From: Desulfobacterales bacterium
GTDB taxonomy: Bacteria; Desulfobacterota; Desulfobacteria; Desulfobacterales; JAHEIW01
Reading direction: 5' to 3'
DNA: 32,047 nt
Assembly (NCBI GenBank): GCA_020353355.1
Contig: CP070694.1
Span: 4,841,828-4,873,874 of the forward strand
Position numbers and translations under genes: made by a program. How positions within the stretch are numbered: position 1 is the stretch's first letter; each line of letters begins with the position of its first letter. The notes beneath the pieces were generated by a model that was given only the letters and a program-made list of their open reading frames with translations, searched no databases and was not told the DNA's origin. Positions 27,072-32,047 of the stretch are shown here, piece by piece.

Positions 27072-27977
27072 TTAAGATAGGCCACGGGTATACTCGCTTG
27101 CCCATTCAAAGACCATATCCATAAATGTTTTAAGCGATTCGGAGATATACTTGTCTTTGTGATGGATTATATAGAATTTGCGGTTCATGGATGGGTCCAA
27201 AAGGGGGATGGCTTTAAGTCTGTTGGCTTGAATTTCATCGTTGGCCACTTTTCTGGAGATCAGCGCAATACCGATGCCTTCTTCCACGGCCCGCTTGATG
27301 GCCCGGTTGCTGGAAAGCTCCAGTGGTATTTTCAGCGAAATATTATTTTTTCTAATAAAATCTTCGATGGCCCGACGCGGAGCCGATCCGGTTTCGTGCA
27401 TGATAATCAGTTGATTTTCCAAATCCTGGGCTTTCAACTGAGACTTTTGGGTAAGGGCATGATTCATGGGGGTGATGATCACCAGCTGGTCTTCCAATAC
27501 CTCTTTGATCACCAGTTTTTTATTTTCTACCGGGTAAGAAATAAATCCGAGGTCATTGTTGAGGGTCGCGGTGTTTTCCACAACGTGTTCGGTGGGCAAA
27601 ATGCTCATTGAAATTCGAACCAGTGGATGGGCCTTGCTGAAAGGGATAATAATATGGGGGAGATAATAATCTCCGAAGCTTTCGCTGGATAGAATGCGAA
27701 TATGTCCTTTCTTGCGTTGCTGAAAGTCTCTGATGCTTTCCTCGGCCTGGCTTTCCATTTCAAATATTTTTTCAGCGATTTCATAAAGCACCTCACCGGC
27801 ATCCGTTAGCACCAGTTTTTTACCAATGTGATCCACAAATTTAATCTCATAATATTCCTGCAGGCGCTGGATTCCCTTTGTAACCGCGGGCTGGGTGATA
27901 AACAATTCTTCAGCAGCTGCGCTTAGGCTACCCTTTTTGGCTGCCAGGTAGAAAATTTTCAGCTGGTTGAGATTCAT
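27072..27977 (-). CDS. LysR-family transcriptional regulator
   Basis: A 301-residue LysR-type regulator: the N-terminal helix-turn-helix (about 1-60) reads 'MNLNQLKIFYLAAKKGSLSAAAEELFITQPAVTKGIQRLQ', followed by a linker helix and a two-lobed effector-binding domain from about 90. Target genes may be the minus-strand methyltransferase/permease block upstream of it or the adjacent plus-strand cluster that it faces convergently. It is the last gene of the minus block and is separated from the previous one by a 21-bp inverted repeat. The ligand is unknown. Confidence 0.92.
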   Translation of the reverse strand: MNLNQLKIFYLAAKKGSLSAAAEELFITQPAVTKGIQRLQEYYEIKFVDHIGKKLVLTDAGEVLYEIAEKIFEMESQAEESIRDFQQRKKGHIRILSSESFGDYYLPHIIIPFSKAHPLVRISMSILPTEHVVENTATLNNDLGFISYPVENKKLVIKEVLEDQLVIITPMNHALTQKSQLKAQDLENQLIIMHETGSAPRRAIEDFIRKNNISLKIPLELSSNRAIKRAVEEGIGIALISRKVANDEIQANRLKAIPLLDPSMNRKFYIIHHKDKYISESLKTFMDMVFEWASEYTRGLS

Positions 27978-28106: not shown

Positions 28107-28979
28107 TCACTCGCTACTTGCCTTTCTCAAAGAAACTCCGACGACATTCGGAATTGGCCAAAAAGCAGAATTGTTAATATTTTCATTCAAATTTATATCA
28201 AAGCCCCCTACGAAATTATATTCCTTGCTGCTGTTTCGAATATACAATTGTGACTGAGGCCCCCCTTCGCAGTACATGGCCCTTGAAATATTGAGCGGCA
28301 GTTGCTGAAGGATGTTAATTAAATCGTGGGTGCTGAAGGGCGAGCTTACATGCATAAATAAAATCTTGTTTTGCCGGTCCATTCCGATTGCCGCCGTGCT
28401 CCATTTCTGGGGTTGCTGGCGCCAGACGTTCTTTCCTTGACAGGAAATCATCCGAATACTTTGCACAAGGGTGCCGTACTTTTTTTTCCAGATTTGAAAA
28501 TCTTCGCATTCACGGTCAATAATTTTAACCAGCGGCACCTCAGGGCTCTGTCTGTCGAATGCCAGGATGGTCTTATCCTTGGAAAGGCGCGGGTTATTTA
28601 TGTGCAATTTGGTGCGCATCAACGATACGCTGGTTTTATGGTCAGTTTGGTACATACTGGCATTGATGGCGGCGATCAAACCGTTTTTGAGGCACCATTG
28701 CCTGGCAGTTAAGGGGTGGCCATCTTTGAACGCCGAGGAATTCAACAACCTGAGCCGGAAGTGTTTCGGATCGATTCGCAACACGCGAATCAATGAATCG
28801 CCGGACTCCGAGGGTTGAGGAGAAAGAAAAATGCCAAGAGAAAGACCTTTCGCAAGCTGTCGCCAACCCAACTCTGAGCCGGCACTTGGATTCGTCTCAT
28901 TCTGTTGCGCCTGTGCCGCGGTCAGCGAGGTAACAATGAGAATAGAAATTAAAATTGGTTTGCTTACACGGTTCATCAT
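28107..28979 (-). CDS. Exported phosphodiester glycosidase-family protein
   Basis: A 290-residue protein with an N-terminal signal peptide (about 1-25, hydrophobic 'ILISILIVTSLTAAQAQ'), hence periplasmic or exported. The mature part matches the phosphodiester glycosidase (NAGPA-like) domain family: 'IAAINASMYQ', 'AAIGMDRQNKILFMHV' and 'MYCEGGPQSQLYI' are its usual strand motifs. Bacterial members have mostly unknown substrates, and some are linked to cell-envelope sugars. The start has two adjacent ATGs (28979, 28976) and no strong ribosome site. It lies only 22 bases downstream of the TauE/SafE permease gene, so it is probably in the same transcript, though it has no obvious link to the pathway. 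Confidence 0.82.
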   Translation of the reverse strand: MMNRVSKPILISILIVTSLTAAQAQQNETNPSAGSELGWRQLAKGLSLGIFLSPQPSESGDSLIRVLRIDPKHFRLRLLNSSAFKDGHPLTARQWCLKNGLIAAINASMYQTDHKTSVSLMRTKLHINNPRLSKDKTILAFDRQSPEVPLVKIIDRECEDFQIWKKKYGTLVQSIRMISCQGKNVWRQQPQKWSTAAIGMDRQNKILFMHVSSPFSTHDLINILQQLPLNISRAMYCEGGPQSQLYIRNSSKEYNFVGGFDINLNENINNSAFWPIPNVVGVSLRKASSE

Positions 28980-29001: not shown

Positions 29002-29754
29002 CTAGATTAAATATTTCATGGCAAATACTAAGACAAGGCCAACAAAAATAGCCCGGATGAACTTATTTCCTTTTTTAACTGCCAGCTTTGCTCCAAAATA
29101 GGATCCGGCCGCGGTACTTAACGTAAGCGGTATGGCAATTTCCCAGTTGACAAATCCCTTGACAATGAACATTGGAATTGAAATCGCCGTGATCAGTAAA
29201 TTGGGCAATTTAGAAGTTGCGGTCGCCTGCAAAAACGTATTGCCAAAAATAAGAATAAATCCAAAGATGATAAATACATTTGCGCCACCGCCAAATATAC
29301 CGGCATAAAAACCGACCGGCGCCCCGAGTATAATACTGATGGCCATATGCCGGAAGGTCATCTTGGTTTCTTTTTCCTGGAGCCCGATTTTGGGATTTAT
29401 GAGAATGATGGCAGAAATGATGCACATAAATATTCCCACAATCTTTTCCAGGATGCCTGCATCCAGAGAGATGGCTACCACTGACCCGTACCATGATGTT
29501 ATCAGCGCCGTTATGCTGAAGGGGATCGCCAAGCTCAATTTTACGAGCTTTTTAGAATGAAAATAAATAGCGGGAATAATTTCGCGACCGATCACAGAAA
29601 CTTTTCCGGTGCCAATGGCCGCCTGGATGGGTAAACCAAAAAAGCTCAACATGGGGACAATTACCAACAGCGTGCTGCCAATGATGGCGCCCATGGCTCC
29701 CAATACAAGTCCCGCCAAACTCACAATGCCGATTTCAAGCACCGATATTTCCAT
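29002..29754 (-). CDS. TauE/SafE family permease
   Basis: A 250-residue membrane protein with about eight hydrophobic spans, in two repeated halves: 'GLVLGAMGAIIGSTLLVIVPMLSFFGLPIQAAIGTGKVSVI' near the start and 'GFYAGIFGGGANVFIIFGFILIFGNTFLQATATSKLPNL' in the second half. This is the TauE/SafE (DUF81) pattern, a family implicated in export of sulfite, sulfoacetate and other organic anions. Which compound it moves is unknown. It starts 18 bases after the EamA gene stop. Confidence 0.88.
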   Translation of the reverse strand: MEISVLEIGIVSLAGLVLGAMGAIIGSTLLVIVPMLSFFGLPIQAAIGTGKVSVIGREIIPAIYFHSKKLVKLSLAIPFSITALITSWYGSVVAISLDAGILEKIVGIFMCIISAIILINPKIGLQEKETKMTFRHMAISIILGAPVGFYAGIFGGGANVFIIFGFILIFGNTFLQATATSKLPNLLITAISIPMFIVKGFVNWEIAIPLTLSTAAGSYFGAKLAVKKGNKFIRAIFVGLVLVFAMKYLI

Positions 29755-29772
29755 TCCACTTAACTCACATCG

Positions 29773-30681
29773 TTATCCCAATCCCACCGAAATCAAACCG
29801 ATAAAGATCATGGTCACGCCGATTATTTTTGGATTATAGCGCGGTTCTTTTAATAACACCATACCAAATAATGCCCCCAATGGGATACTAAGTTGCCGAA
29901 ACGCAGCCACATAGCTGACGTTGGTTACAAAATTCATGGACACGAGAACCAGTCCATAAGTTAGATAAATCCCGATTCCAGTTGTTGTGGCTGCGCCCTT
30001 ATACTTGTGCAAAACTTTGCTAAAATCTGCCCGTTCACGGGACTGCAAGAGCACAAACAGGCTTTGCCAGAGCGAGCAACTAATGCCTTCCAGTACCATA
30101 TAAATCAATGTGCCTTCAAGCGGGTCAAAAGGGTTTACGGGAAGCTCGCGAAGATGTCGTAACGCGTTGTCATCTGTGACCGTATAGCCTGAGATTCCGA
30201 GAGCGGCCAAAACAGCCAGAAAACAACAGGGGTTTTTATAGTTGAATATATGAAATTCCCGAAGCGTCTTCAGCGGCAGTATAATACATCCGCCGACGAC
30301 CAGAACTGCTCCTAAAATAAACCACCCGCCTAGTGGTTTCCCCTTCCCCAAAAAAAGAGTGAAGCAGAAAACGAAAATAACCGGTAAAGCTCTTGCCAGG
30401 GGGTAAGCTATGGAGATGTCACCACTGCGATAAGATCCCGCAAGGGCTTCCAGGTAAGCTGCCAGAAAAAAACCGGACATGACCGCAAATATCCATACCG
30501 GTTGCGGAATTAGATGAACTTGAGGCCAGTGGTAAAATAGAATGGGGAGGACGCAAATCACACCAATGGTGTTGGCCACCAGGTAAAATGCCTGGGTCGG
30601 ATGCTCCCTTTTGCTGATAAAATTCCAGCCCGCGTGCGTAACGGCGGAGATAATCAGCAAGATTGCAGCGGTAATCGACAT
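29773..30681 (-). CDS. EamA/DMT-family membrane transporter
   Basis: A 302-residue permease with about ten predicted membrane helices in two EamA repeats. The first contains 'SAVTHAGWNFISKRE' and 'SIAYPLARALPVIF', and the second ends 'VAAFRQLSIPLGALFGMVLLKEP' followed by 'GVTMIFIGLISVGLG'. The drug/metabolite transporter superfamily moves small metabolites such as amines and amino acids; the substrate cannot be read here. It is encoded between the methyltransferase gene and the TauE/SafE gene, suggesting transport related to the methylated substrate. Confidence 0.88.
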   Translation of the reverse strand: MSITAAILLIISAVTHAGWNFISKREHPTQAFYLVANTIGVICVLPILFYHWPQVHLIPQPVWIFAVMSGFFLAAYLEALAGSYRSGDISIAYPLARALPVIFVFCFTLFLGKGKPLGGWFILGAVLVVGGCIILPLKTLREFHIFNYKNPCCFLAVLAALGISGYTVTDDNALRHLRELPVNPFDPLEGTLIYMVLEGISCSLWQSLFVLLQSRERADFSKVLHKYKGAATTTGIGIYLTYGLVLVSMNFVTNVSYVAAFRQLSIPLGALFGMVLLKEPRYNPKIIGVTMIFIGLISVGLG

Positions 30682-30719: not shown

Positions 30720-32027
30720 TTATTTAAAAGATAACCCCATTTGGATCATTTCTTCCACTACCTCATCGTACAGCTGAATATACTCTTCAGAAGGCTTTTG
30801 AGTTTTGAGATTATAACATTCCTGATATTTCTTTCCCTGGGGGGCATTGGCGATATCATCTTCATATTTTTCCAAAAGACGGTTGGCAAGTTCGTTGGCC
30901 TGATGTGCTTGCATGCCCGTGATTGCCCTGGTAAGCTCGACGGTAAATTTTGCTTCCATGGGTGTCACGGCATCATCAACGACGGCTTTTGCCGGATGGG
31001 GCGTTTGGATACCGGCATACCCGGAAGGAACCTGGGATAAAATCGTCGTGGCAGCTACATAAAAGAACATTCTGGTACAGGGTCCGGCAGCGGCAAAGCC
31101 TATGGCAATAGCCGGATAGCGGGTGTTGCGACTGGCAGCTCTGCCGCTTATGGCAAATACCCACAACGCCTCCCGCATGGAGTTGCAGCCGAAGTTGAAA
31201 TGAATGGGGAGGGTCAGATGATAGGTTCCCTGGAACATATGCATTCCGACTAAATAATAAGCGGTTTTTACCAGAGCAGTACCGGGCGCTCCGCCGGCAT
31301 AGCCGCCAAGGATAGGAACGGCCGTCGAACCAATGTTGCCGTTGATAATCTGGATAAATGCCAGACGGTTTAACGTTTCATAATTGACTTTCATCTCTGC
31401 CAAAACATCGATCAGACAACCGTCTGAGGGTCGCAGTCCAAAGGTGGGATAGCTACCGGCGATGGTGCCCATGGCTGTTGTGGAAGAGGACAGTAAATTC
31501 ATGATGGGCAAACCAGGTCTTCCGCAGCGCCACAGTGCTTTGCGGGCTGTCTGAACGGTAGCTATGCTCGCATATACCTCCAAGGGGGACCCTCCGGTGA
31601 CCGGCATACCTCTGACATGACTGAAGGCCGGGACACTGACGGAATTCGCTTCAAAAATGCTGCCATATCCTTCCACCTGGGCCATCGCAATTTCTTCTGA
31701 GGAAGCCACGATTCCTGTTCCGAGATGCAGCCAGGGAAGGGTTTTGTCTTCCGGTAAACGTGATATAAAGGTCCGGCAATCCTTTCCTTCGCCAAAACGT
31801 GCTTGACCCTCTCGAAATTGTTGAACGGATTTCAAGATTTCTCTGCGGTCCAACTGAATGACGCGGTTGGTGTCCTGGCAGTAGATTCCGGTGCGGGCAA
31901 GAAGCTCTATGGAAGCCTCGTACAGGCGATCGGCCATGGCATCATCAGATGTAATCGGATTTTTCTTATCGAGGATTATCTCGTATTCGTTGACGATATC
32001 TCTTACATTCGGGATCAACGACTTCAT
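30720..32027 (-). CDS. MtmB-family corrinoid methyltransferase lacking pyrrolysine
   Basis: The 435-residue protein resembles monomethylamine:corrinoid methyltransferase (MtmB). Shared motifs are 'GIYCQDTNR' (47-55), 'GRPG' (169-172), 'GGYAGG' (241-246), 'AGPCTRM' (314-320), 'PMEAKFTVELTRAITG' (356-371) and 'APQGKKYQECYNLKT..PSEEY' (395-416). Archaeal MtmB has the pyrrolysine, encoded by an in-frame UAG, a few residues after 'GRPG'. Here the aligned position is Met176 with a plain ATG codon (31500-31502), and the frame has no internal TAG. The Glu pair after 'GGYAGG' in MtmB is Pro-Gly here. It is somewhat shorter at the N-terminus than archaeal MtmB (about 458 residues). It may demethylate something other than monomethylamine, as is known for non-pyrrolysine members of the MttB family. 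Any partner corrinoid protein would lie outside the window. Alignment is from memory. Confidence 0.82.
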   Translation of the reverse strand: MKSLIPNVRDIVNEYEIILDKKNPITSDDAMADRLYEASIELLARTGIYCQDTNRVIQLDRREILKSVQQFREGQARFGEGKDCRTFISRLPEDKTLPWLHLGTGIVASSEEIAMAQVEGYGSIFEANSVSVPAFSHVRGMPVTGGSPLEVYASIATVQTARKALWRCGRPGLPIMNLLSSSTTAMGTIAGSYPTFGLRPSDGCLIDVLAEMKVNYETLNRLAFIQIINGNIGSTAVPILGGYAGGAPGTALVKTAYYLVGMHMFQGTYHLTLPIHFNFGCNSMREALWVFAISGRAASRNTRYPAIAIGFAAAGPCTRMFFYVAATTILSQVPSGYAGIQTPHPAKAVVDDAVTPMEAKFTVELTRAITGMQAHQANELANRLLEKYEDDIANAPQGKKYQECYNLKTQKPSEEYIQLYDEVVEEMIQMGLSFK

Positions 32028-32047
32028 ATTGAAGTCTTTTTCGGTGA

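Follow-up and report, generated by a model that had tools for sequence, protein, structure and literature searches.

The window analysed here is a stretch of 32,047 nucleotides from a Desulfobacterales bacterium (GCA_020353355.1, contig CP070694.1, positions 4,841,828 to 4,873,874), whose genome is a scaffolded MAG of 5.3 Mb with a completeness of 84.7%. The gene of interest lies at the very end of the window; downstream of it, on the same strand, come genes for two permeases, a glycosidase-like protein and a regulator:

30720 to 32027, minus strand: MtmB-family open reading frame, 435 amino acids from the ATG at 32027, with the frame open to 32045
30720 to 32045, minus strand: gene for a non-pyrrolysine (non-Pyl) MtmB-family methyltransferase of clade A, PF05369 match of 294.8 bits, 5' end beyond the window
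31500 to 31502, minus strand: ATG codon of Met176, aligned with Pyl202 of M. barkeri MtmB
29773 to 30681, minus strand: EamA transporter, 38 bp downstream of the MtmB gene
29002 to 29754, minus strand: TauE/SafE permease (profile match), after a further 18 bp
28107 to 28979, minus strand: NAGPA-domain (phosphodiester glycosidase) protein (profile match), after a further 22 bp
27072 to 27977, minus strand: LysR regulator (profile match), after about 130 bp

The rest of the window (positions 1 to 26998), as read from its open reading frames, is a catabolic region with three dihydropyrimidinase-like proteins, a nitrilase-like enzyme, four MmgE/PrpD-type proteins, a branched-chain-type ABC transporter, an HMG-CoA-lyase-like protein, LeuC/LeuD-like proteins and a CoA transferase. 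A first-pass annotation, made from the letters alone, had started the MtmB gene at 32027. This is an internal ATG, as in the alignment complete homologs carry about 24 more N-terminal residues than the frame counted from there. Since the frame is open to 32045, the homologs are longer and a run of N stands in the scaffold just past the window's end, the gene is truncated by an assembly gap and its true start lies beyond the window. A search of a plasmid collection gave no match.

Assignment of the protein to the MtmB family, as proposed in the first-pass annotation, was confirmed by profile, by sequence match to the PDB and by fold. The PF05369 (MtmB) match has an E-value of 1.4e-87 and 294.8 bits against a gathering cut-off of 25 bits, and covers positions 29-450 of the 450 in the profile. 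The best PDB match by sequence is M. barkeri MtmB (E 1.3e-55, residues 23-434 on 50-458). The predicted fold gave the MtmB structures 1l2q, 1nth and 1tv2 as best and only close structural matches (TM 0.83), while the match to MttB was weak (TMq 0.39-0.48); the model has a mean pLDDT of 74, with residues 179-244, next to Met176, below 50. PF05369 was the only family reported by Pfam, with no match to PF06253 (non-Pyl MttB, COG5598), and neither NCBIfam nor PHROGs reported any family. Thus, no other methyltransferase family came out as a better match in Pfam, in the PDB or by fold. The motifs GRPG, GGYAGG and AGPCT and the C-terminal motifs, on which the initial assignment relied, are all present in the reading frame.

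The residue aligned with pyrrolysine is indeed Met176. The pairwise alignment with M. barkeri MtmB puts it opposite Pyl202, and so do two MAFFT alignments, of 45 and of 64 family members, with no gap between GRPG and the Met176/Pyl202 site; none of these alignments places it elsewhere. The gene contains no in-frame TAG at position 202, nor any other in-frame stop. As a positive control we used the TAG-containing MtmBs of three genomes of the same order (G493, G607 and G691), which have TAG exactly in the pyrrolysine column. All three of them (3/3) keep Glu229, Glu259 and Gln333, which we take to be the residues lining the pyrrolysine ring in the MtmB structures, whereas in the window protein the columns Pyl202/E229/E259/Q333 read M/L/T/I. 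Nor does the window protein keep the acidic pair that follows GGYAGG (E272-E273), as had been stated before; its sequence there is GGYAGGAPGTA. In clades A and B (see below) the pyrrolysine column holds Met or Leu, and in other non-Pyl branches Ile, His, Val, Tyr and others. The site is thus variable once pyrrolysine has been lost, and Met by itself is no signature. Two further positions set the window protein apart: Val324 stands where Glu is kept almost throughout the family, Pyl members included, and Cys204 stands where all other clade A members have Trp. Judging from these substitutions, the chemistry of the window enzyme may be altered or lost.

In a tree of 64 family members, MtqB (discussed below) not being among them, the Pyl enzymes form one group with support 100. 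The window protein belongs to a separate group of 10 sequences, clade A, also with support 100. The members of clade A come from the family of the window organism, from another family in the same order, from a second lineage within the phylum, and from Spirochaetota and Chloroflexota, so that the clade is spread over three phyla. Clade B is its sister (support 91 for A and B together). The closest relative of the window protein is its ortholog in genome G004 (81% identical), and dN/dS between the two genes is about 0.06, which indicates that the window gene is under purifying selection. The window protein has 8 unique changes, a typical number as clade A members range from 4 to 11.

Does the organism simply lack pyrrolysine? 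Neither PylS nor PylD was found over cut-off in this 85%-complete MAG, so the pyl gene search itself came back empty for these two. Yet the genome has three MttB genes with an in-frame TAG at the pyrrolysine motif AGGOGD(G/S)K:

G000:C1:3303594-3305003, minus strand: TAG-MttB (L127)
G000:C1:4077079-4078491, plus strand: TAG-MttB (L128)
G000:C1:4823177-4824601, plus strand: TAG-MttB (L129)

In addition, PylD is present in a genome of the same genus (266 bits). The likeliest explanation is that the pyl genes lie in the 15% of the genome that the assembly lacks. Given the three TAG-MttBs and this PylD, an organismal lack of pyrrolysine is probably not what put Met at the site, and we did not accept missing pyrrolysine machinery as the sole reason for it.

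Non-Pyl MtmBs are a kind already on record, and the earlier description of this branch as much less described than non-Pyl MttBs is by now dated. MtqB of Methanococcoides methylutens Q3c is a non-Pyl MtmB which demethylates tetramethylammonium and choline and, weakly, methylamine; it was characterised in 2026, in a study whose tree covers 1,061 MtmB homologs, both Pyl and non-Pyl (PMC13044021). According to that study it is the first non-Pyl MtmB for which a function has been demonstrated, the remaining ones of the survey having no known function (PMC13044021). In strain DCMF a non-Pyl protein of the MtmB superfamily, Ga0180325_111810, is induced on dichloromethane, its function being unknown (PMC9768040). 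Reading the window protein as a non-Pyl MtmB was right, by profile, alignments, tree and fold, and its sequence marks it as a further member of this known kind, within a little-studied clade. It shares with the Pyl-MtmBs (M. barkeri 1L2Q and the three bacterial ones used as control) the fold, the length and the motifs named above, and differs from them in having neither TAG nor pyrrolysine, in lacking the three ring residues and in its separate, strongly supported branch. With MtqB it shares the family, both being non-Pyl MtmB homologs, and presumably the use of an MtxC-type corrinoid protein as partner. MtqB comes from an archaeal methanogen, however, and next to the window gene there is no gene for a corrinoid protein, its 5' side being an assembly gap. 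The DCMF protein is, like that of the window, a bacterial MtmB homolog without pyrrolysine. Non-Pyl MttBs (MtgB and its relatives) represent an analogous loss of pyrrolysine in a corrinoid methyltransferase family, but in a different one (PF06253).

The two permeases noted before beside the gene are the EamA and TauE/SafE proteins. EamA orthologs adjoin the clade A MtmB in G004 (74%) and L008 (67%), and the window LysR shares 60% and 57% identity with LysRs encoded close to the clade B MtmB genes of G284 and G304, which belong to two other families; for TauE/SafE and NAGPA the locus comparison found no orthologs at relatives' loci. The EamA scores 155 bits against TIGR03340 (phn_DUF6, cut-off 288) and the LysR 181 bits against TIGR03339 (cut-off 341), so both were set aside as phosphonate markers and are suggestive only. 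A corrinoid-protein gene had been proposed as something to look for beyond 32047. None adjoins the window gene: the closest match to a B12-binding domain lies about 47 kb off, though the 5' side is an assembly gap. At relatives' loci such genes are present. The G004 cluster comprises three MtmB paralogs, a corrinoid protein (an MtxC above the TIGR02370 cut-off), MttBs, a UroD-family protein, EamA, an AMP-ligase, an aldehyde ferredoxin oxidoreductase and an iron alcohol dehydrogenase that scores best in NCBIfam against a choline dehydrogenase model (357 bits, below the cut-off of 550). MtxC proteins with 58-72% identity to that of G004 occur in seven further clade A/B loci (L007, L008, L009, L010, L041, L043 and L083). 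Otherwise the clade A neighbourhoods differ between phyla, with class III aminotransferases recurring.

A clade spread over three phyla stands, in Chloroflexota, directly beside textbook aminoethylphosphonate genes, which offers a specific substrate candidate. In L007 a co-directional run of PhnW (470 bits, cut-off 400.8), PhnX (332 bits, cut-off 220), MtmB-A, MtmB-B, MtxC and GntR has gaps of about 60-120 bp; an agmatinase-family protein is encoded just upstream of PhnW (L007:241-1203). The arrangement in L117 (G1047) is unlike that of L007, as GntR-PhnW-PhnX (PhnW 479 bits, PhnX 331 bits) is divergent from the clade A gene. In L009 PbfA lies beside the clade A gene (718 bits, cut-off 525). 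PhnX is scarce in this Chloroflexota class, being over cut-off in 23 of 396 genomes, and two of the four clade A genomes of the class have it (hypergeometric P 0.018, a rough value which treats genomes as independent). In both, PhnX and the MtmB gene are no more than about 2.2 kb apart; roughly, the chance of a random place falling within 5 kb in a 4-Mb genome is about 0.0025. In G804 and G871, which combine PhnX with MtmBs of other branches, the two are on different contigs, and no close PhnW, PhnX or PbfA was found at the other-branch loci examined. Next to the MtmB genes of the window and of L004 there is neither PhnW/PhnX nor PbfA, and PhnX over cut-off was absent from G000 (the window genome) and G004, both incomplete assemblies. 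The aminotransferase upstream across the gap is not PbfA and, being joined to the window only by the run of N, was not used. A PhnX-like HAD encoded in the vicinity of clade B genes (L042, L043) was discarded as phosphonate evidence, as three copies elsewhere in the window genome show it to be unspecific. PhnW needs a primary amine and cannot use N-methyl forms, monomethyl aminoethylphosphonate is handled by flavin enzymes, and the only described route for the trimethyl form uses oxygenases (PMC10590968, PMC10574752). No paper joining MtmB and aminoethylphosphonate was found in the literature searched. The gene context thus suggests an N-methylated aminoethylphosphonate as substrate in the Chloroflexota, and this is weak for the window's own locus. 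The initial proposal of a new methylated substrate gains plausibility from these Chloroflexota neighbours; it is unproven, and little at the window locus speaks for it.

On balance, the window gene probably encodes a corrinoid-dependent methyltransferase of the non-Pyl MtmB type, acting most likely on a choline-like quaternary amine. Methyl transfer, the partner protein and the substrate class are what we infer here. The methylated amine would be bound in the TIM barrel, its methyl group would be passed to an MtxC protein, on whose corrinoid the Co(I) accepts it, and MtxC would carry it to a C1 carrier. With both the methylamine-activating pyrrolysine and its partner residues missing, a quaternary, choline-like amine is the most likely substrate, as it would not need covalent activation, just as for MtqB. 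Besides family, fold, clade and purifying selection, this reading is favoured by the MtxC genes at relatives' loci, by the activity of MtqB and by the choline-dehydrogenase-like enzyme and the aldehyde ferredoxin oxidoreductase of the G004 cluster; against it stand the lack of a corrinoid-protein gene near the window gene and the residues Val324 and Cys204. A narrower version, in which the gene is an MtqB ortholog whose actual substrate is choline or tetramethylammonium, is unlikely in our opinion: MtqB has the only assayed activity of a non-Pyl MtmB (PMC13044021), and the trimethylamine formed from tetramethylammonium would be used by the organism's three TAG-MttBs, but the clade A neighbourhoods vary across phyla and choline would need none of the recurrent class III aminotransferases. 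Even less probable is that the window copy is decaying or catalytically lost. Val324 and Cys204, the truncation at the contig end and the lack of a visible corrinoid partner within about 47 kb point that way; against it, the frame has no internal stop, dN/dS is low and the unique changes are typical in number.

Trimethyl aminoethylphosphonate is the phosphonate analogue of choline. It is possible, although we would not expect it, that clades A and B demethylate N-methylated 2-aminoethylphosphonates such as this trimethyl form without oxygen, PhnW and PhnX then degrading the product. This reading is favoured by the L007 run, the divergent L117 genes and the L009 PbfA, by the scarcity of PhnX in the class and its separation from the other MtmB type in G804 and G871, and by the inability of PhnW to accept N-methyl forms together with the need of the described route for oxygenases. 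It is limited to Chloroflexota so far, however, and the window genome speaks against it with its lack of PhnX over cut-off, its EamA and LysR far under the phn cut-offs and its unspecific HADs. More speculative, and rather doubtful, is the proposal that clade A, possibly acting with its paralog B through a single common corrinoid protein, strips N-methyl groups from mono- to trimethylated aminoethylphosphonate anaerobically, and possibly acts also on tertiary or secondary amines without pyrrolysine. If true, oxygen-independent demethylation of methylated aminoethylphosphonates would provide an anaerobic route to phosphate and link C1 cycling to phosphorus cycling, and it would bear on whether non-quaternary amines really require pyrrolysine. 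The aminoethylphosphonate link of the Chloroflexota relatives is thus the part worth following.

Some minor observations concern other genes of these genomes. The PhnX-like HADs of the window genome (L114:7511-8239, L115:8105-8833 and L116:8038-8766) are closely similar to one another and unusually conserved, being 79-86% identical to copies in other families. The window genome also has a second MtmB homolog (L003:9061-11114), with His at the pyrrolysine column and an adjoining corrinoid-protein gene on the same strand; this His-type branch is common in the window's order. Finally, G284, a genome of the window's phylum, has 14 MtmB matches of several branches (C1, C2, C4, C5, C13, C50, C57, C63, C86 and C115).
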